Below, piece by piece: positions 750-21,736 of a stretch of 32,108 bases of DNA. The notes beneath the pieces were generated by a model. It saw only the letters and a list, made by a program, of their open reading frames with translations. It ran no database searches and was not told the DNA's origin. Source of the stretch: Opitutaceae bacterium (GTDB lineage: Bacteria > Verrucomicrobiota > Verrucomicrobiia > Opitutales > Opitutaceae). Where the stretch lies: the NCBI GenBank assembly GCA_027482505.1, contig JAIXVY010000191.1:1-32108 (forward strand), given 5' to 3'. The stretch's first letter is position 1. Each line of letters starts with the position of its first letter. The translations under genes and the position numbers were made by a program.

Positions 750-3700
750 ATGAACCAATCCCCAGCTCATCATTTTCCATGCCGTGCTTCGTGCGTTGGC
801 CAGCTGTGCGCAGCAATTATGCTGATTGCCGCGCTCGCCATCAGCGCAACGCGGCCCCTATCCGCGCAACCCGCCATTGCAGCAGGCTCGTTGCATAGTC
901 TCATCCTAAAGGCAGACGGCACACTCTGGAGCTGCGGAGACAATGGCTCCGGCCAGGTGGGCGGAGGCACGGCGACAAGGCTCTTATATCCCTCCTTGGT
1001 CATGTCCGGCGTTCGCGCCATCTCTACCCAATACTCCCATTCGCTTATATTAAAAGACGACGGCACAGCGTGGGGCTGCGGCTTCAACGGCTCAGGGGAA
1101 CTTGGACTCGGCAATACGACCAATCGCCTAACCCCCGTTCAAATAATGACTGGGGTTCAGGCGGTGGCAGCGGGCGTCCAACACAGTCTTTTCCTAAAAA
1201 CCGACGGCACCGTCTGGGCTACCGGAGTAAATGGAAATGGCCAATTAGGCGACAACTCCACTCAAAGTAAGTCTGCTCCCGCGCAAGTGTTGAGCACCTC
1301 AGGACAAGCACTCACGGGCGTAAAAGCCATAGCTGCAGGTTTAAGCCACAGTTTATTTTTAAAAACAGACGGGACAGTTTGGTTTTGTGGCACTGGTTAT
1401 TCAGGAAATGGTTCACTCACTGTCAACCAAACCTATGCCAGCCAGATAGCCACAGGCGTAAAAGCTATATCTGCAACTTGGAATCACAGCCTGCTATTAA
1501 GAGACGATGGTTCCGTTGCGGCTTTTGGTGAAAATAGCTGGGGCCAGTTGGGTGACGGTGGAACAACAGCTCGAGCCACCCCCGTGCAAGTCATGACTGG
1601 CGTTCAAGCAATCTCCACAAACCAGTTCTCAAGTTTATTCCTAAAAACAGACGGAACCGCGTGGAGAGCAGGAAGGGTGAATGTCGCTGGAGTAACTTCA
1701 GGCACTTCTACACCAATACAAGTCTTGACTAATGTGAGCGCGATTGCCGCAGGTCAAAATCATAGTCTATATTTAAAGGCCGACGGCTCGGTTTGGGGAG
1801 AAGGCACCAATCAATCTGCGCAATTGGGAGACGGCACATATTCTGATCGCGCGACTGCGATCCAAATATTTAATGTGGCCGCGCCGTCCTACCAAATAGT
1901 AAATGGATCGTTTACATGGACCCAAGCAAAGACGGATGCGGAGGCACGCGGGGGGCGACTGGCTATTATTGATACTCAAGCGAAGATCAATCACTTAGAG
2001 AACTTGCTCACCCGAGCAGGCTCTTGGCCTTTTCTATGGCTGGGCCTCACCGACACTGAATCAGAAGGAACCTGGAAGTGGCTGGACGGAACCATAATAA
2101 CAACTAACAACTGGGCAGCCGGAGAGCCAAGCGCATCCAACAGCCAAGAGGATTATGTTTACATTTATCCAAGTGGTTCAGTTTATCCACGCAAATGGAA
2201 CGATGCTCCGCAAGATGCACCATCTCCAAACCAATCAGGTTATCTACTAGAAGTCCTAAAGCCTTTTTCACCTTACGGCTGGGGAACGGACTCCGCGGAG
2301 GGCAGATTAAATACTCCCTCGGGGCTAGATAGCTTAACTAAGATCGAAGGAGGCTATAACCACAGTGTGGCACTTAAATCCGATGGCACCGTAGTCGCTT
2401 GGGGAAATAACAACGGAACCCAAGGAATCACCCAAGTGCCAGCCGGCCTTTCCAGTGTTATAGATATAGACGCGGGCTGGAATTGGACAGTTGCCAGAAG
2501 AAGCAACGGAACATTGGTCTCCTGGGGGGCCAATGATTCAGCTCAAATTACACAAACTCCTACCAATCAAAGCTTCATCTCCGTAGCCGCCGGAAACATG
2601 CATGGTGTGGCTTTAAAAAATGATGGCACCGTAGTGTGTTGGGGACGCGGAGACTTTGGTCAAAAAACTGTGCCCGCGGGATTAAATAATGCGATTGCGG
2701 TGGCTGCTGGCGGCCATTGGACAATGGCGCTTAAAAATGACGGCACGGTGGCCGCCTGGGGCGCGATTACCAATTTCCCGCCAATCGGATTATCCAACAT
2801 CTCGAAGATCGCAGCCGGAGACAGCTTTGGTTTGGCCCTTCGTAGCAATGGCACTGTGGTAGCTTGGGGAGACAACACTTACGGGCAACTAAACATTCCC
2901 GCAGGCTTGGATAACGTTACTTCAATTTATGCTACAGCTTTGACAGCATATGCCATAAAGACCGACGGCAGTGTAGTAAGCTGGGGCGATAATCGCTTCG
3001 GCCAGCGCAATATTCCGATATTACCCGGCAATCAACGATGGAACACAATCGGTGGCGGCTGGGAACATGTTTATGGATTGGCTTTAATTCCATCCGCTCC
3101 AATAATTACATCTCAGCCTCTTGCGGTTACCAACTTTTTGGGCGCAACCGCAAGCTTCTTGGTATCCGTTTCCAGCACACTTTCCCCAAGCTATCAATGG
3201 CGCAAAAATGGCGTCGATATTCCAGGGGCCACCACGTCTACCCTATCTCTCGCTTCAGTGTCTCTGACGGATGCCGGAAGTTATTCCTGCCTGATATCAA
3301 ATTCGGTCGGCTCGGTAGTATCAAATTCCGCAAATCTAACGGTATACCCTGAAACCAATCTCACTATCCGCACGCAGCCCGCCTCACAAGCAATAGTCCT
3401 AGGCAATAGCGTTACCTTTAGCGTATTCGCTACAAGCGTAGATCCAATTGGCTATCAGTGGCGCAAAAATGGCATTACTATTCCCGGTGCCACCTCGGCT
3501 AATTATACTATAGCTGCCGTCACTAGCACCGACGCAGGCAACTACACTTGTATAGTAAGCGATCCCGATGAACTACTGTTAACAACCGCAGCCACGCTTA
3601 TTGTTCAAACTCTACCGGCCATTACTTCTCAACCCACTTCGCTGACCGTGCTGCAGAATGCCTCCGCAACTTTCAGCGTCGCGGCCACCGGCACACCCGC

Positions 3701-4502
3701 CCCCACCTACCAATGGCGCTTCAACGGCAGCCCCATATCCGGCGCCACCTCGGCTTCCTATTCCATCGCCTCAGCCCAGGCGGCCAACGCGGGCAACTAC
3801 ACCTGCGTCGTGACCAACGCCGCCGGCTCCGTCACTTCGGGCACCGCCACGCTCACGGTAAACATACCCGCCGCCATCACCGCCCAGCCCTCTTCCCAGT
3901 CAGTCAACCCGGCCGCTTCCGCCACCTTTAGCGTCACCGCCTCGGGCACCGGTTCCTTGAGTTATCAGTGGCGCAAAAACGGCCGCAATATCGCCGGCGC
4001 GACCTCCAGCACCCTCACCCTGTCCAATGTCCGCTTCTTGGATGAGGCCAAATACACTTGCCTGGTCTCGAATGCGTTCGGCTCCGCACTGAGCACCGTA
4101 GCCACACTCACCATCACCATCAGCCCCACTTCGCCCGATTCCGACGGCGACACCATCTCCGACGCCTTGGAGACCTACCTGTCCGTCTTCGGCCTCGATC
4201 CGGCGGTGGACTCCACCGAGGAGTGGACCCGCCTCCTGGCCATGATTCCCGACCTTGGCGCCTATTACACCGCCGACCAGATGCGCGATCTCGCGGTCGG
4301 CAGCCCCACCCTGCGCCGCGGCACCAACGGCAACTTCCTTCTCGATGTCACCGTTCAAGAATCCACCAACCTCAACACGTGGACCAACCGCGCACTCTCC
4401 GCGCCGATGATCACCTATCCCGGCGGCGTCCTTCGCGTCGAACTGCCCCCACTCGATTCCTCCACCCACTTCTATCGCCTCAGGAGCCAAGCGGCCCCGT
4501 AA
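750..4502 (+). CDS. Giant exported protein: RCC1 repeats, C-type lectin-like domain, RCC1 repeats, four Ig-like domains
   Basis: A 1250-residue exported protein. A long N-terminus ends in a hydrophobic signal segment (LCAAIMLIAALAISATRPLSAQ), with likely cleavage near residue 40. Residues about 42-375 hold seven RCC1-like units of the form AIAAGxxHSLxLKxDGTxWxxG. Residues about 380-506 resemble a C-type lectin fold (FTWTQAKTDAEARGGRLAII, FLWLGLTDTESEGTWKWLDG, NNWAAGEPS). Residues about 528-775 give six more RCC1 units with AWG cores. Four Ig-like domains follow (about 785-1127), each with a YQWRxNG motif and a late C residue in the Y(S/T)C strand. DSDGDTISDALE at about 1132 resembles a calcium-binding TSP3 loop, and the C-terminus has a QESTNLNTWTNR motif. 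A role in surface adhesion or carbohydrate binding is inference. No PEP-CTERM or autotransporter domain is visible. The first 2.9 kb are AT-richer than the last 0.85 kb. Confidence 0.88.
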   Translation: MNQSPAHHFPCRASCVGQLCAAIMLIAALAISATRPLSAQPAIAAGSLHSLILKADGTLWSCGDNGSGQVGGGTATRLLYPSLVMSGVRAISTQYSHSLILKDDGTAWGCGFNGSGELGLGNTTNRLTPVQIMTGVQAVAAGVQHSLFLKTDGTVWATGVNGNGQLGDNSTQSKSAPAQVLSTSGQALTGVKAIAAGLSHSLFLKTDGTVWFCGTGYSGNGSLTVNQTYASQIATGVKAISATWNHSLLLRDDGSVAAFGENSWGQLGDGGTTARATPVQVMTGVQAISTNQFSSLFLKTDGTAWRAGRVNVAGVTSGTSTPIQVLTNVSAIAAGQNHSLYLKADGSVWGEGTNQSAQLGDGTYSDRATAIQIFNVAAPSYQIVNGSFTWTQAKTDAEARGGRLAIIDTQAKINHLENLLTRAGSWPFLWLGLTDTESEGTWKWLDGTIITTNNWAAGEPSASNSQEDYVYIYPSGSVYPRKWNDAPQDAPSPNQSGYLLEVLKPFSPYGWGTDSAEGRLNTPSGLDSLTKIEGGYNHSVALKSDGTVVAWGNNNGTQGITQVPAGLSSVIDIDAGWNWTVARRSNGTLVSWGANDSAQITQTPTNQSFISVAAGNMHGVALKNDGTVVCWGRGDFGQKTVPAGLNNAIAVAAGGHWTMALKNDGTVAAWGAITNFPPIGLSNISKIAAGDSFGLALRSNGTVVAWGDNTYGQLNIPAGLDNVTSIYATALTAYAIKTDGSVVSWGDNRFGQRNIPILPGNQRWNTIGGGWEHVYGLALIPSAPIITSQPLAVTNFLGATASFLVSVSSTLSPSYQWRKNGVDIPGATTSTLSLASVSLTDAGSYSCLISNSVGSVVSNSANLTVYPETNLTIRTQPASQAIVLGNSVTFSVFATSVDPIGYQWRKNGITIPGATSANYTIAAVTSTDAGNYTCIVSDPDELLLTTAATLIVQTLPAITSQPTSLTVLQNASATFSVAATGTPAPTYQWRFNGSPISGATSASYSIASAQAANAGNYTCVVTNAAGSVTSGTATLTVNIPAAITAQPSSQSVNPAASATFSVTASGTGSLSYQWRKNGRNIAGATSSTLTLSNVRFLDEAKYTCLVSNAFGSALSTVATLTITISPTSPDSDGDTISDALETYLSVFGLDPAVDSTEEWTRLLAMIPDLGAYYTADQMRDLAVGSPTLRRGTNGNFLLDVTVQESTNLNTWTNRALSAPMITYPGGVLRVELPPLDSSTHFYRLRSQAAP

Positions 4503-4524
4503 TATAAATAAGTTAGGCAACACC

Positions 4525-4549
4525 GCTAGAGACCCCCTAAGGGGTTAGC
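4525..4549 (+). terminator. Weak hairpin between the two giant secreted-protein genes
   Basis: GCTA-gag-ACCCC-CTAA-GGGGT-TAGC forms a bulged stem-loop 23 bases after the RCC1 gene stop. No T-tract follows, so it may be an attenuating or RNA-stabilising structure and not a full terminator. Confidence 0.3.
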
Positions 4550-4565
4550 TTGAAACCGAATACCC

Positions 4566-7500
4566 ATGAAAAAGAGCCTTTCCTCGCACCTGCTGATGCT
4601 CTGCGCCTTGATTTTTAATTTTGCGTTGGCCGGCGAACCGATTCCCGACCGAATCCTCGTGCGGTTCAAGCCGGACGTAACAACCGCGGAACGATCCTCG
4701 ATTGAAGAGAAATACAACCTTACACTGCTGAAGGAAATAAAACTCTTCAAAATACACGTATACTCCTTCGATAGCACCTTAAGCACAAGCACCAGTCTTT
4801 GCGAAAAGCTTAAGTCCGAAGTCGGTGTAGAAACAGCGGAGCCAGACCAAGCCAGAAAAATTAGCAGCGCGAACGACCCCGATTACACGAAGCAGTGGTA
4901 TCTGAATAACACCGGACAAACCGTGAACGGAAAATCGGGGCCGGCGGGCATCGATATACGATGGCCGGCCGCCAACGCTCGTTACAACCCCCAGTCCGTA
5001 ATTAAGGTCGCCGTAATAGACTCGGGCACGGCTATTCTGCATCCAGATCTCGTCGGCTCGATGTATAACAAAGCCTCTGAAGTAATAAATGGAATTGATG
5101 ACGACAACAACGGGCTAATAGACGACTGGTGCGGCTACGACGTCTTCTCGGACGACAGCCTGGCGCTTGACCAAAACGGACATGGCACGCTAGTCGCGGG
5201 CATAATCGCGGCCGAGATAAACAACTACACGGGCGGAAGCGGAATCACCAATAACATAGAAATAATACCCTACCGCATATTTGACCAGTTTGGTCGCGGA
5301 GGCAGTCCCAAATACAGGATTGGCAGCATAGGCGTTTCAGACGTGCTTGTGGCATTGGCGCACGCCGTCGAAGAGGGATCGAAAATCATCAACTTAAGCC
5401 TAGGTGGGAGCGGCTTCAGCTCACTGGAGCAAGAAGCCTATAATCAATTGGTTAATGAGAACATATTGGCTATAATTGCCGCGGGCAACGGAGGAGTCGA
5501 CAGCAAGGGAGATAATAACGACATTTACCCGACTTATCCCGCAACTTACCCTTCGTCTGCAATCATAGCTGTTGCCGCGCAAAAGAGAAGCGGCGGCCTT
5601 GCGGATTTCTCCAATTATGGAGTTGTCAGCGTAGATATAGCGGCCCCCGGAACCGACATCTATGGACCGGACGTAACCAGAAAGACAATATTCTACCAAA
5701 GCTTTGATAACGGCGCACCAGGATGGACAGTGGGGAGGAACACCAGTGACCAGTCCTACTTAAATTGGACGATAGCCTACGATGGAGCCAATGGCTACCT
5801 AACCGATCGCCTGCCTTATACAGAATACCTTCCAAATACAGATACATGGGTAAGGTCTCCATTTATCGACTTGAGCGCTGCCGCTGGAACCAGGCTTGAA
5901 TTCGATTCGTATTTCGAACTGGCGGATGACTACATAGTGCTAGAAGTTTCAAATGATGGCCTCAATTGGACTGACTACCAATATTTTTATAGCGATGAGT
6001 TTACTGCATTTTCAACCGAGCCCATGGATATATCCGACTTGGATGGGCAATCGGGATACCTAAGATTCAGATTGGTGAGCGATTATTCAATTCAAGGCTT
6101 TGGAGCATTAATCGATAATGTGAAAATCTCCGCCATTGATGACTTTAACGCCAGCAACCCAAGTTATAGATATAATGATGGAACCTCATTTGCGGCACCC
6201 GTCGTTGCCGGTGTAGCAGCTATGGTGTGGACTCACAGGCCTGACCTTACTGCCGCCCAAGTCAGAAATTGCATACTTCTCTCGGCTCGCCCCGTATCAC
6301 TTTTAAGCGGCAAGGTGGCTACCGGGGGCATGGTAGACGCAAACGCCGCACTGATTTACGCGGATTCGCTGCCAAAAACCACCCAGTCCATCGATTTCAA
6401 TCCCATCTCAAACCAAATTTTTAATCCGACAGAAAACAACCAAGTGCCGCTCTCGGCAATTTCCAGTTCCGGTCTGCCCGTCACCTACGAGGTCGTTTCC
6501 GGACCCGCGACGATCAGTAATAACACACTAACGATTACCGGACAGGGAACAATCACGGTTCGAGCCTACAATTCAGGAACCAACAGCTACTCTAGCGCAT
6601 CGGCAAGCCGAAGCTTCACTGCTTCGCTGCAGAAGCAGCAGCAAACCATCAGCTTCCCGCAACCTTCTGATAAAACTTTTGGCGATGCGCCGTTTACAGT
6701 GACGAGCTCCGCATCAAGCGGCCTCGCAACCAGTCTGACTTTGATCAGCGGGCCAGGAACCTTAAACGGAAACACCTTAACCATAACCGGGGCAGGTCAG
6801 ATCGTTTTGCGCTCCACCCAAGCAGGCAACAGCGCATACGAAGCGGCTAGCCCGGTTGATCGCACAATAGCAGTTAGCAAGCAAGTCGCAGGCATAGGCA
6901 CAAGCGGCCTTAATAAAATTTATAATGGTGGTCGTCATACAATCTCCACGGCCACCAGTCCAGCGGGACTAAACTTACTGGTCTCTTACAATGGCCAAGC
7001 CTTAGGCCCGATCGAAGCGGGGACTTATCAGGTTGGTCTTACCATCTCAGATGCCAACTACACTGGCAACTCCACCGCTATCCTCGTGATTGAGAAAGCA
7101 AACCAAACCATCACGCCGCCCAATATCCCATCCCAAATCAACTATTCTCCCTCCAACAACACCCTGACTCTAAACGCGACAGCAAGCTCTGGACTACCCG
7201 TATCCTATAGCGTAATAAGCGGCCCCGCCAGAGTTGATGGCAACATACTTACCGTCAGTGGAGGAGGCAATATCACGCTACGCAGTTCGCAGAGCGGCAA
7301 CAACAACTACAACAGCGCCGCAAATGTGGACACTAGTATTAGCGTAACTGACGCAAATGATGTTCCTCGGGTAATTAGTCAGCCCACCACGGTCCTTGCA
7401 GCGGTTAATTCCAACGCCTTACTAGATATAACAACTTCCGGAACTGGCCTAAAATACCAATGGTATTTTGCAGGCAAAGCCATCAAAGGTGCGGTAGCCG

Positions 7501-8123
7501 AAGATCTTTTCCTAAAGGTAACCGCGAAATCCGCAGGCACCTATATTCTTACCATGATCGACAGCACCGGAGACATCGCCACTGCTTCGGTCACACTTCG
7601 CGTGGCGCTAGCGCCCAAAATTACAAGACCTCCCGCCAAAGCAGCATCGGTCGCCCTTGGCGGCTCCGCGACCTTAGTTGTAGCCGCAAGCGGAGAAGCG
7701 CTTTCTTACCAATGGTTCCGCAATGGAGTAGCCCTCCAAGATCAAACCGCAGCCACCCTGTCTGTCTTCTCTGCCACGGCCGAATCCTCAGGCAACTACA
7801 CTGTGCGGGTCAGTAACATTGCTGGCTCAGTCACCTCGAAAGGAACTAGCCTTACTGTGCTTGCGCCACCGACCGTTGGCACAATTACCGGCCCCTCAGT
7901 GGTGGCGATGCGCTCGGGATTCACACTTGGCGTTATTGCCAGCGGTCCTGGAAAATTAATTTACCAATGGCGTCTGAACGGCAGCCCAATACCGAAGGCC
8001 ACCGGCCCCCGATACGTTGTGAAAACAGCCACTTCCACGAACGCGGGCACATATACCGTCACTGTAACGAATTCGGTTGGATCTACCACCAGCGATGGAC
8101 GCGTGTTGGCTGTAACACCCTGA
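4566..8123 (+). CDS. Secreted subtilisin-like serine protease (S8) with Ig-like and MBG-like C-terminal domains
   Basis: An 1185-residue exported protein with a clear signal peptide ([23 protein letters not shown]). A propeptide-like region ([22 protein letters not shown]) precedes a subtilase domain with Asp152 in VAVIDSG, His206 in NGHGTLVAG, Asn308 of the oxyanion hole in AAGNGG and Ser541 in [17 protein letters not shown], so all catalytic residues are present. A block of about 150 residues (about 376-525, [15 protein letters not shown] to [10 protein letters not shown]) is inserted between Asn and Ser and looks like a jelly-roll beta-sandwich. After the protease come three similar repeats with [14 protein letters not shown]/LTITGxGxI motifs, one MBG-like domain (NKIYNGG...[16 protein letters not shown]) and about three Ig-like domains with YQW motifs up to the C-terminus. 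It is co-oriented with the RCC1 gene 63 bp upstream and may share its transcript. The substrate is unknown. No sorting signal is seen. Confidence 0.93.
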
Positions 8124-17884: not shown

Positions 17885-17939
17885 GATGGCTAAAAAGGAG
17901 CGTGTTGTCGCCAACGCGCTTTCCGGGCCGGGAGCGGGT

Positions 17940-18293
17940 TTATTTGGTCAGGGACTCCAGATACTTCCAGAATTTCGAATGCTGCTCGACGAGCTGGTCT
18001 TCCGAGACGGGCAGTCGGTTGCGAAGCAGGAAGTCCTCCAGGGAGTGATGGTGGAGGATGTAGAGAACATGCAGCACATCCTCGCCCTGAACCTCGAAGT
18101 AGTAGCGCAGCTCGCCATCGCGCAGCCGGTAGAGGGTCTTGCCCGCGCGCACGAAGCGACCGAGCGGCTCGCGCGGGTGGGCGAGGTCTTCGGGCCGAAG
18201 CTTGCCCACGGGCTCGATGGCGGAAAGCTGCGCCAGCGGATCGAGCTTCTTCAGCTCGCCGAGGGCCTGGGCGGAGAAGGTGACCTGGAACAT
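17940..18293 (-). CDS. RelE/ParE-like small protein without a visible antitoxin
   Basis: A 117-residue protein from the ATG at 18293 (MFQVTFSAQALGELKKLDPLAQLSAIEPVGKL). The track start includes 33 upstream low-complexity residues. The TFSAQALGELKKLDPLAQL start, then FVRAGKTLYRLRDGELRYYFEVQGEDVLHVLYILHHHSLEDFLLR has the order of helices and strands of the RelE/ParE toxin fold, with a central RAGKTLYRLRDGELRYYFE hairpin. The C-terminal 30 residues (VSEDQLVEQHSKFWKYLESL) extend beyond the typical toxin. No small antitoxin gene lies next to it, and it is upstream of pssA on the same strand. It may be a non-toxic cytoplasmic relative. The function is not known to me. Confidence 0.6.
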   Translation of the reverse strand: MFQVTFSAQALGELKKLDPLAQLSAIEPVGKLRPEDLAHPREPLGRFVRAGKTLYRLRDGELRYYFEVQGEDVLHVLYILHHHSLEDFLLRNRLPVSEDQLVEQHSKFWKYLESLTK

Positions 18294-18425
18294 GATGCGC
18301 CAAGCAACCCGCCGCCCGGCGCCAAGGCAAGGCCCATGGCGGCGCGGTCCTTTGCGGTTTGCGCATTGCCGCCCGCTCCCCCCGCGCGCCACCTTGCGGC
18401 CGAACAGTCTCTATGCAGACCTCTG

Positions 18426-18475
18426 ACTCTTGGCATCCCATTCATGGTGGACGACTACGGGGCGGAGTTTAAGGG
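18426..18475 (+). pseudogene. Relic copy of the N-terminus of the downstream solute-binding domain
   Basis: Bases 18426-18470 align without gaps to 19466-19510 with 37 of 45 identities, including the 16-base run CTACGGGGCGGAGTTT. Translated, LGIPFMVDDYGAEFKGE here corresponds to LDIPVLVAGYGAEFFEE in the fusion gene. The open frame continues only to 18548. It may be the decayed original 5' end of the transporter gene, with the PEP-CTERM patch placed between the two copies. Confidence 0.5.
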
Positions 18476-18554
18476 AGAAGCTTTAGACGGATCTTTTTTC
18501 TGCTGTTCTCTATATGGGCTTTTCTACCACAGGGCTTTCTATCTATAGTCAATT

Positions 18555-19160
18555 ATGGGTTATCTATTGCGTGTTGGCTTCGGAATTTGTCTCGCAACCT
18601 CCTGTTCGGTTGCACGTTCAGCTATAATTTATACGGATTTTAGGGCAGCACCAATTACGGTCGTATCTGGAAGCCCCATATCTGTGGACATGGATACCGC
18701 CCAGGCTGGAACAAGTGTTCCCGGCAATGATTTGTTTTTAGCCTACGGCAGCTTTTCCGTGGAAAATCCTAGCGTGCAGTCAAATCCAGCAGACACCTCC
18801 ATCGCCGCAGTTCCTGCTTCACCTGGCAATGTTTTGAGACTGAATTATGGAGACTCGTTTACATCAGCCTCTTTTGTGGCTTGGGGCGGTTTTTTAGACA
18901 ACGGTAGCTACGGAGGGTTTTGGGACGCTACAAGTGGCGAAGCCTATGTAGGTGTTCGAAAAGGCGGAAATGAGGGTTGGCTACGGATTTTTTATGACGA
19001 TAGTGCCGACGTGTTCCAGTTGACTGGTATAGCTTACAATCAGTCGGGAACTCTCACTGCTGGTCAAACGACGCAAATTCCTGAGCCAGGAACGGCAGGA
19101 TTATTTGGGGCATTTGTCGCGTTAGGTATGGCAAGTGTTTTAAGGCGCAGGGTGTCATAA
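18555..19160 (+). CDS. PEP-CTERM sorting domain-containing exported protein
   Basis: A 201-residue protein. A hydrophobic signal peptide opens it (MGYLLRVGFGICLATSCSVARSA). The C-terminus IPEPGTAGLFGAFVALGMASVLRRRVS has the PEP motif, a transmembrane helix and a basic cap, which is the PEP-CTERM sorting signal processed by exosortase in exopolysaccharide-producing Gram-negatives. The middle (YTDFRAAPITV, NVLRLNYGDSFTSASFVAWGGFLDNGSYGGFWDATSGEAYVGVRKGGNEGWLRIFYDD) looks like a beta-rich domain with no recognised function. Exosortase is not in the window. The gene is markedly AT-richer than the genes on either side, and the surrounding patch (18480-19465) shares this composition, consistent with acquisition. 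Confidence 0.9.
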   Translation: MGYLLRVGFGICLATSCSVARSAIIYTDFRAAPITVVSGSPISVDMDTAQAGTSVPGNDLFLAYGSFSVENPSVQSNPADTSIAAVPASPGNVLRLNYGDSFTSASFVAWGGFLDNGSYGGFWDATSGEAYVGVRKGGNEGWLRIFYDDSADVFQLTGIAYNQSGTLTAGQTTQIPEPGTAGLFGAFVALGMASVLRRRVS

Positions 19161-19357
19161 GCGAGCTTTTGGAGCTAGGTGCAGTGAGCGGCAGGCTCAT
19201 GACAGCGGTAATGCATCACTTCACCCCATTTGCTTTGCTTAAAATATGGTTTAACCCATTAGAAATATTTAATTTAAGGTAACTCTTCGTTAGAAAATCT
19301 GTCGCGTATTTTGCTAAACGCTACATCGATATAGCTCTCCGCGTGGACGCGAGTCCG
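19161..19357 (+). other. AT-rich intergenic stretch before the fusion transporter gene
   Basis: No gene is seen. The sequence is low in GC (AAATATTTAATTTAAGG, TTAGAAAATCTG) and could carry the transporter promoter. No ribosome-binding site, hairpin with T-tract or repeat of note was found. Confidence 0.5.
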
Positions 19358-21736
19358 ATGCACCAATTGAAACGATGCGCGTTTAATGTCTCGGTCTTTT
19401 ATTATTTAGGTATTTTTCTTTGGCTGCTCGCAGAGTCTGCTGGTGCAAAAGAAACCGATAAGACCACTCTCGACATCCCCGTGCTGGTGGCCGGCTACGG
19501 GGCGGAGTTTTTCGAGGAGACGGCGCGCGAATTCGAGAAACTCCGGCCCGGCGTGCGGGTGAATCTCCACGGCGATCCGCGCATCAACGACAAGGTCCGC
19601 ACCCGCGTGATGGCGGGCGACTTTCCCGACGCCACCGACGCCGTCCTGCTCTATCCGAAGCTCATCGAGGCCGGGCGCGTCCTCGACCTCGGGCCCGCCC
19701 TAGACGGTCCCAATTGGGAGGGCGACGGCCGCTGGCGCGACGATTTTCGCCCCGGCGTGCTCGCGCGCTGGACCGACGCCGCCGGGCGCGCGCACGGGGT
19801 GCCCTTCGCCCACGCCATCTGGACGATCTTTTACGACAAGGCCCTCTTCCGGAAAAACGGCTGGGAGACGCCGCGCACGTGGGACGAGTTTTTCGCGCTC
19901 TGCGAAAAGATCGAGGCGGCCGGCCTTGCCCCGCTTTCGCTGCCGGGCGTGGCCATGCGCTACGGCGACGCGATCCTGCGCGCCGCGCACCACAACCTCG
20001 TCGGCCCGGAGGGCTATCGCGACTATCTCGCCCTCGCGCCGGGCGCGCGCGAGGATCCGCGCTTCATCCGCGCGGCGGAGGTGCTGCGCCGCGTCTCCAC
20101 CCGGCATCTCGTGCGCGGCTGGGAGGGCATGACGCACACCGCCGCCCAGCTCGCCTTTCTGGAGGGGCGCTGCGCCATGACTCTCTCCGCCTCCTGGTTC
20201 GCCAACGAGATGCGCGGCCGCCTGCCGGAGGGCCTGGAGCTCGGGGCGATGAACCTGCCGGTCTTCGCCGATGGTATCAGCCATCCGGATACGGTGCAGG
20301 CCCAGAGCGGCTACTATTTTCTTTTCCGCACCGGCGATCCGGCGCGGGAGGCGGCCGCGGTGGACTTTTTCCGCTTCCTCACCTCGCGCGAGCGGGTGCG
20401 GCGTTTCGCCGCCCTGGCCGACGCGCCCGCCGCGCTGCGCGCCGCCGGGCCCGCGGACTACTCGCCGCGCATGGCCGACACCGCCGCGCTCCTCGCCGCG
20501 GCGCCGGCCGCCTTCGACGCCGCCCCCGCGCCCGCCTCAGCCGCCCAGGCCACGCTGGGGCAGGCCCTCTCGGACGCGCGCCACCTGCTGATGACCGGCC
20601 GCATAACGTCGGAGGAATTCGGCGCGCGCCTGGAGGCCGCCGCCGCGGTCGAACGCGAGCGCGCCGCCGATCCCGACCACGTGAGGTCGCGGCATCCGGG
20701 CAAGGCCGCCCTGCTGGGCGGCCTGCTGCTCGGCCTCGCGCTTTGGCTGGCCTGGCCGCGTCGCCGCAAGGGCGGGCGCGCCGCGGGCGCGGCGGAGGGC
20801 GACGGCGGCCTGCTCGGCCGACTGGGCGCGCGGCAGGGCGCGGGTTTCGTGGGTCCGGCCTTCGCGCTCTACGCCGCCTTCGTGCTGTTGCCCGGCCTCG
20901 CCGCCTTCGCGTGGGCGTTCACGCGCTGGGACGGATTTGGCGAGATGACGTGGGCGGGGCTCTTCAACTTCCGCTGGCTCCTGCTGGAGAGCGACGTGTT
21001 TTGGTCCGCCCTTGGAAACAATCTCTTCCTCATGCTCGTGCCGCCGCTCGTGGTGGTGCCGGTCGCGCTCGGGCTCGCGGCCTACGTGCACCGCGGCGGG
21101 GCGGGCGCGGGCGCGCTGCGCGTGGTGTTGTTGTTTCCCAATCTGCTCGGCGGCATCGCGGCGGCGCTCATCTGGCTGGCGGCCTACGAACCGACGAGCG
21201 GTTTGGTGAACGCCTCGCTCGTGGCGCTGGGCGATCTGGCCGGCGCGGCGGGGGCGCCGGCGTTTCTGGCCGACTGGTTGCGCTCGTTCTCCGGCCACGC
21301 CTGGCTGGCGCAGTCCAATCTCTACTGGTCGCTCGTGCCCATCTACCTGTGGATGGCGTGCGGCTTCAACCTCGTGCTCTACCTCGCCGCGATGCAGGCC
21401 GTGCCGGCGGAGCTCTACGAGGCGGCGGAGCTCGATGGCGCCTCCAAGGCGCGGCAGTTCTTCCTCGTCACCCTGCCGCTGATTCGCGAGGTGCTCGTCA
21501 TCTCGGCGGTGTTTCTCGTCATCGGCGGGCTCAACGCCTTCGAGCTGGTGTGGCTGCTCACCGCGCAGGATCCCTCGGCCGGCGCGCACACCCTCGGCAC
21601 CTTCATGGTGGGAACCTTGTTCACCGAGTTTCAGGCCGGGCGGGCGGCGGCGATCGCGGTGCTGCTGTTCGCGCTCGTGATGGTGGCGACCCTGGCGGTG
21701 TTGCGGGCCACGCGAAAGGAGACGGTGGAGCTATGA
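19358..21736 (+). CDS. Fused ABC solute-binding protein and MalF-like permease
   Basis: A 792-residue protein from the ATG at 19358. A GTG at 19343 adds five residues. A signal-anchor (FNVSVFYYLGIFLWLLAESAGA) leads into an extracellular solute-binding protein family 1 domain, about residues 30-430: IPVLVAGYGAEFFEETAREFEKLRPGVRVNL, RTRVMAGDFPDA, AHAIWTIFYDKALFRKNGWETPRTWDEFFALC, AAQLAFLEGRCAMTLSASW. One helix (AALLGGLLLGLALWLAWPRRRKGG) then returns the chain to the cytoplasm, and a MalF-type permease fills about 495-792 with several hydrophobic segments and the EAA loop YEAAELDGASKARQFFLVTLPLI. Binding protein and permease are normally separate. The frame is open across the join, so this is a true fusion and not a sequencing break. 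The MalG-like gene overlaps by four bases (ATGA). No ATPase is encoded nearby. Substrate, probably a sugar or oligosaccharide, is inferred from family only. Confidence 0.9.
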   Translation: MHQLKRCAFNVSVFYYLGIFLWLLAESAGAKETDKTTLDIPVLVAGYGAEFFEETAREFEKLRPGVRVNLHGDPRINDKVRTRVMAGDFPDATDAVLLYPKLIEAGRVLDLGPALDGPNWEGDGRWRDDFRPGVLARWTDAAGRAHGVPFAHAIWTIFYDKALFRKNGWETPRTWDEFFALCEKIEAAGLAPLSLPGVAMRYGDAILRAAHHNLVGPEGYRDYLALAPGAREDPRFIRAAEVLRRVSTRHLVRGWEGMTHTAAQLAFLEGRCAMTLSASWFANEMRGRLPEGLELGAMNLPVFADGISHPDTVQAQSGYYFLFRTGDPAREAAAVDFFRFLTSRERVRRFAALADAPAALRAAGPADYSPRMADTAALLAAAPAAFDAAPAPASAAQATLGQALSDARHLLMTGRITSEEFGARLEAAAAVERERAADPDHVRSRHPGKAALLGGLLLGLALWLAWPRRRKGGRAAGAAEGDGGLLGRLGARQGAGFVGPAFALYAAFVLLPGLAAFAWAFTRWDGFGEMTWAGLFNFRWLLLESDVFWSALGNNLFLMLVPPLVVVPVALGLAAYVHRGGAGAGALRVVLLFPNLLGGIAAALIWLAAYEPTSGLVNASLVALGDLAGAAGAPAFLADWLRSFSGHAWLAQSNLYWSLVPIYLWMACGFNLVLYLAAMQAVPAELYEAAELDGASKARQFFLVTLPLIREVLVISAVFLVIGGLNAFELVWLLTAQDPSAGAHTLGTFMVGTLFTEFQAGRAAAIAVLLFALVMVATLAVLRATRKETVEL

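Follow-up and report, generated by a model that had tools for sequence, protein, structure and literature searches.

The gene for a fused solute-binding/permease transporter protein in a freshwater Opitutaceae-type bacterium has very probably exchanged its front in a lineage-specific event, in which the joining of an insert of about 1 kb replaced the start of the gene and left a decayed remnant of the old front upstream. This analysis supports the preliminary description of the locus, which had read it as the result of an insertion or recombination. The host is represented by a draft genome of 4.28 Mb (540 contigs, 79% complete), and the window, that is, the whole stretch of DNA analysed, comprises 32,108 nucleotides of contig JAIXVY010000191.1. 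A direct repeat marks the site. To its left lie the minus-strand genes dnaN, pssA and a ParE-like gene; to its right lie the fused solute-binding/permease gene, a second permease gene and a gene for a PAS-SpoIIE phosphatase; and between the two blocks stands a gene for a PEP-CTERM protein of 201 aa. The ParE-like gene (17943-18293, minus strand; PF05016, E=0.00099, 20.1 bits, below the cut-off of 23) is the fixed left neighbour in the family, being found beside pssA and upstream of the transporter at 50 loci including the window, with orthologues 65-98% identical. It has no evident antitoxin partner, yet is kept by pssA family-wide, which is unusual for a toxin. Elsewhere in the window, positions 750-8123 hold a pair of very large genes, probably for secreted proteins, of ~50% GC amid surroundings of ~65-70% GC; their domains comprise RCC1/Ig/lectin repeats and a subtilase with Ig/MBG domains.

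The direct repeat and the old gene front

Positions 18426-18470 and 19466-19510 are identical at 37 of 45 bases without gaps, and the match stops sharply on both sides. Both copies encode L-x-IP-x-x-V-x-x-YGAEF in the same phase, as had been noted at the outset. The local score of the pair is 25, as against a best score of 14.0 in 500 dinucleotide-preserving shuffles of the flanks, of which none reached it, and 15.5 (n=100) when larger flanks of 2-2.5 kb were used; chance similarity, which would have undone the original proposal, thus fails to account for the match. The pair is the longest direct repeat within 17900-20000, with a copy spacing of 1040 bp. Its final 16 bases (CTACGGGGCGGAGTTT) are identical, and all eight changes fall in the first 29. 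This core was considered as a recurring attachment site and rejected as such, since at up to one mismatch it occurs at just one other place in the genome, and there with one mismatch. The low GC content and the PEP-CTERM gene reported between the copies were both found again: the GC fraction is 0.76 in 18294-18402, 0.39-0.56 in pieces of 18403-19465, and 0.66 in 19466-19600. The change in composition falls exactly at the edge of the repeat on the right (19466) and 23 bp outside it on the left. The right copy (19466-19510, plus strand; TLDIPVLVAGYGAEF) is the functional one and, in keeping with the first reading, marks the start of the mature solute-binding domain, as PF01547 begins near residue 54 of the ORF 19343-21736.

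The left copy belongs to a longer remnant. Positions 18341-18402 (plus strand) align with the native 5' region of the transporter gene in genome G013 (loci L022 and L060), the closest relative by transporter protein identity (86%), with E=2e-6 and an alignment score of 26.1 against a shuffle maximum of 20.0. Since this stretch is homologous to the native leader, the left copy is, as judged by sequence, the old front of the transporter gene. Within the former leader lies a conserved element, TTTGCGCATTGC (18358-18369, plus strand), which is intact in G013 and carries one to four changes ahead of the gene in most genus members; no convincing copy was found upstream of the gene in G009, and nothing comparable stands ahead of the new start. 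As an observation in its own right, the TTTGnnCRTTGC-like element at this position and in the orthologous leaders of most genus members is a candidate operator, and in the leader of G006 it forms an inverted repeat, TTGGTCA...TGACCAA.

The claim that the old 5' end was left behind as a relic therefore holds for the leader homology, but the left copy is not an intact 5' end, because its signal-peptide code is gone and the candidate ATG (18413-18415) is out of frame with it. Alignment with orthologous starts suggests that this ATG may be the old start, followed by a few bases of old signal-peptide code (18413-18425, plus strand), a very short and weak match. Counted from the leader element as far as the repeat's ACTCT, the window has 68 bp and G013 has 163 bp, so that ~95 bp of signal-peptide code are missing. 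The relic proper (18426-18470, plus strand; TLGIPFMVDDYGAEF) is a decayed copy of the code for the mature N-terminus. Most of its eight changes affect sites that are invariant or nearly so among the orthologues; in six of the eight, an A or T has replaced a G or C. Loss of the signal-peptide code together with changes at conserved sites would be the look expected of a disused fragment; the uneven distribution of the decay across the relic counts against the main explanation. At the five positions where the gene in the window differs from that of G013, the relic has the state of the window in all five, which indicates that it derives from this lineage's own gene; likewise, it matches the copy in the window's own gene best (37 bases, against 33 or fewer for any relative). 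The divergence of the relic (8/45; Jukes-Cantor 0.20, with a wide error on 45 bp) lies within the ~0.24 per lineage obtained from the fourfold distance between the window and G013 (0.479 for the pair), and thus fits the branch since the split from G013.

The AT-rich insert and the new gene front

The AT-rich patch (18471-19465; GC 0.39-0.49) has no homologue in relatives: its DNA gave no match in 56 relatives beyond 27-bp scraps, and no further copy was found in the assembled genome. No donor sequence was found for it among the 56 relatives, viral contigs and plasmids, and the PEP-CTERM protein likewise gave no match in viral contigs and plasmids. The only credible gene within 18471-19342 is the PEP-CTERM gene. 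The patch showed no recognisable integrase, excision, recombinase or transposase gene and no terminal inverted repeat, nor was a recombinase or transposase recognised among the genes seen in the window; with neither inverted repeats at its ends nor a transposase, the insert does not correspond to an insertion sequence or transposon. A search for RNA families across the region yielded chance matches only.

The surface-protein gene at 18555-19160 (plus strand) is a plausible, though not strongly scored, member of the PEP-CTERM class: its family-model scores fall under the cut-offs (TIGR02595, 15.5 bits against 16; PF07589, 13.5 against 20.7), and a clear IPEP...RRR tail is visible by eye. In this C-terminal signal, and in the presence of exosortases in the genome (three PF09721 hits over the cut-off, best E=6.4e-41), it resembles Verrucomicrobiota PEP-CTERM/exosortase genes. 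Its nearest protein relative found is a PEP-CTERM protein in G009 (29% identical, E=1e-14), and no significant match occurs in the fetched orthologous loci. Elsewhere in the genome there are 35 PEP-CTERM motif hits. The gene departs from that class in its sub-threshold scores and in being unusually AT-rich for this genome, with GC 0.49 and GC3 0.41 as compared with 0.64 +/- 0.05 and 0.78 +/- 0.10 in 20 other PEP-CTERM genes of the same genome, none of which has a GC of 0.50 or less. Low GC is therefore not simply a habit of this class here; the insert looks foreign in composition, and this would point to an origin in another organism. A literature search on the spread of PEP-CTERM genes in Verrucomicrobia returned nothing relevant. 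Among 19 other PEP-CTERM genes inspected for gene-fragment repeats around them, a single case (score 19.5, locus L143) came to light, and was rejected because the repeated TTTGCGCAAAA element there is AT-rich and non-coding, not a fragment of a gene. At that locus (G000:C196:11000-15100), a 32-bp AT-rich element starting AAATTTGCGCAAAA precedes both the PEP-CTERM gene and the next, pilin-like gene, and is possibly a shared regulatory site.

Downstream of the PEP-CTERM gene, an AT-rich intergenic stretch (19161-19342, plus strand) is presumed, by its position and composition, to hold the new promoter, which the insert would then supply. No sigma-70-like match was found there, and a sigma-70 scan says little for this phylum. 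The ORF then opens with a new 5' coding end (19343-19465, plus strand), starting at GTG 19343 or ATG 19358 and encoding a putative signal peptide, MHQLKRCAFNVSVFYYLGIFLWLLAESAGA-KETDK, which is presumably functional. The idea that bases upstream of the relic match this new signal peptide was rejected (score 7.0, shuffle mean 7.8). From 19466 to 21736 (plus strand) follows the native body of the solute-binding/permease fusion, with orthologues ~70-86% identical across the genus. The whole ORF, 19343-21736, has the domains of a sugar-type ABC importer fusion (SBP_bac_1, E=5.7e-26; BPD_transp_1, E=6.2e-9), and it is a clean open frame in which the native body continues in frame from the AT-rich start and its plausible signal peptide. 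The earlier proposal that the transporter gene was given a new 5' end is thus borne out, the native body being in frame with a start of different origin. Full-length orthologues of the fusion also occur in Opitutaceae, Latescibacterota, Gemmatimonadota and one Armatimonadetes record.

Comparison with relatives and the history of the locus

The relatives compared are Verrucomicrobiota/Opitutaceae MAGs and one complete genome of the same genus (G010), and a query with the transporter protein returned orthologues across the genus. The preliminary description had pointed to the interval between the pssA/RelE-like genes and the transporter as the place where related genomes might show a single continuous gene. 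This is what they show. In G013, 247-256 bp separate the ParE-like gene from the mature domain, the gene is continuous and free of the patch, and it starts with its own GC-rich signal peptide. A short interval of 194-297 bp ahead of an uninterrupted gene is found in seven other genomes of the genus (G003, G005, G006, G009, G010, G011 and G013). The interval itself often gains genes: G012, the sister of G013, has a Phd-type antitoxin and a PIN toxin in it, three other genus members have different genes in an interval of 2.5-2.6 kb, and across the family its length runs from 194 bp to 2.6 kb. Among the genes collected at this spot (18294-19465 in the window; loci L060-L137) are the Phd/PIN pair (L061), EF-hand-like proteins, an IlvA-like enzyme, a possible REP-associated transposase (L102) and others. 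The flanking repeat is absent in relatives, where the best score is 12.5 as against 25 in the window, and the arrangement is seen in one genome only. In the tree, the window is sister to G012 and G013 (support 100/99). The lack of the patch in relatives, together with this position, indicates that the patch was added in the lineage of the window. The opposite order of events, in which the arrangement including the relic was ancestral and lost in relatives, would have spoken against the original reading; family-wide the interval is variable and has other genes elsewhere, but the short form in the sister pair (G013) and in lineages outside, and the finding of this PEP-CTERM gene or repeat in no relative, leave the ancestral reading with practically no credence.

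In the history that we favour, the transporter gene of the ancestor would have been continuous, with its start ~100-150 bp beyond the ParE-like gene, as it still is in relatives. In this lineage alone, ~1 kb of AT-rich DNA would then have been joined in frame at the start of the mature protein, with the PEP-CTERM gene, the presumed promoter and a start with signal peptide as its cargo, and with a copy of 15 mature codons left at either edge. Production of the transporter would now rely on the start and signal peptide that the insert brought, and the remnant upstream, consisting of the old leader and 45 bp of coding sequence, would have lost most of its signal-peptide code and gathered point changes. 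The joining may have occurred in several ways. Such a repeat would be left by a single crossover if the incoming DNA shared the YGAEF-coding stretch, and equally by a template switch during repair in which 45 bp were copied twice; site-specific integration would also give one, but no integrase is present. A wider role, in which short PEP-CTERM segments devoid of a recombinase act as mobile gene-front modules that repeatedly enter secreted-protein genes within their first codons and exchange promoter and signal peptide, is very improbable, a single case having been found and 19 other PEP-CTERM genes having no gene-fragment repeat.

An unlikely alternative is that the front of the transporter gene was first duplicated internally and the PEP-CTERM segment came later, or that the whole stretch arose by rearrangement within the same genome. 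The relic's agreement with the window at all five positions that separate it from G013 is what this would predict, but the signal peptide and upstream region are unrelated between the two copies, the assembled genome contains the patch only once, and the patch is foreign in composition. We also regard it as rather doubtful that an integrative element once recombined site-specifically into the YGAEF codons, as such elements do in dusA and prfC, and has since shrunk to the present patch, with CTACGGGGCGGAGTTT as the attachment core and the new gene front as the restoring sequence of the element. A repeat with a perfect 16-bp core does bracket the insert, and the frame is restored with a new N-terminus, as has been described for IMEVchUSA3 (dusA) and SXT (prfC; PMC8409611). 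Against this stand the small size of the insert, its lack of an integrase or excision gene, and the single recurrence of the core in the genome; the match between the copies moreover takes in the 29 bp ahead of the core, which attachment of a foreign element would not in itself demand, even if such elements frequently imitate the gene that they restore. That assembly or binning has joined unrelated DNA would accord with a fragmented draft genome and an arrangement seen in no second genome, yet both junctions lie between orthologous flanks in the correct order, the shared exact stretch of 16 bp is below common assembly word lengths, the eight mismatches of the repeat imply age, and the chimeric gene reads cleanly as an open frame headed by a plausible signal peptide; such an artefact is highly improbable.

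Relation to known gene-front replacements

A chromosomal gene whose start and secretion signal come from inserted DNA, and whose old front can still be seen, provides a natural example of the regulatory rewiring of a sugar transporter. The closest known systems are the integrative mobilizable element IMEVchUSA3, which inserts in the 5' end of dusA, and the ICE SXT, which inserts in prfC (PMC8409611). These elements are bounded by attachment-site repeats, and through the new N-terminus and promoter that they supply the target stays in frame and expressed; the islands in that study measure 22.8-37.1 kb and carry integrase and excision functions (PMC8409611). The gain of the Phd/PIN pair in G012 is a nearer parallel in place, as unrelated genes arrived there in the interval that separates the ParE-like gene from the transporter; it differs in that the transporter gene of G012 retains the native leader element and that no repeat arose. 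Unlike the dusA and prfC elements, the insert described here measures ~1 kb and has no integrase or excision gene, its target is a transporter gene, and its promoter is presumed; lacking the integrase, it is not classed with them. Like them, it would have entered the 5' part of a gene, has a repeat with an identical core at both junctions, and restored the frame of the target with a new N-terminus (ORF 19343-21736). An uninterrupted site is seen in relatives. On this comparison, the principle of gene-front replacement is one already known from dusA and prfC, of which the present locus would be a clear if modest single case.
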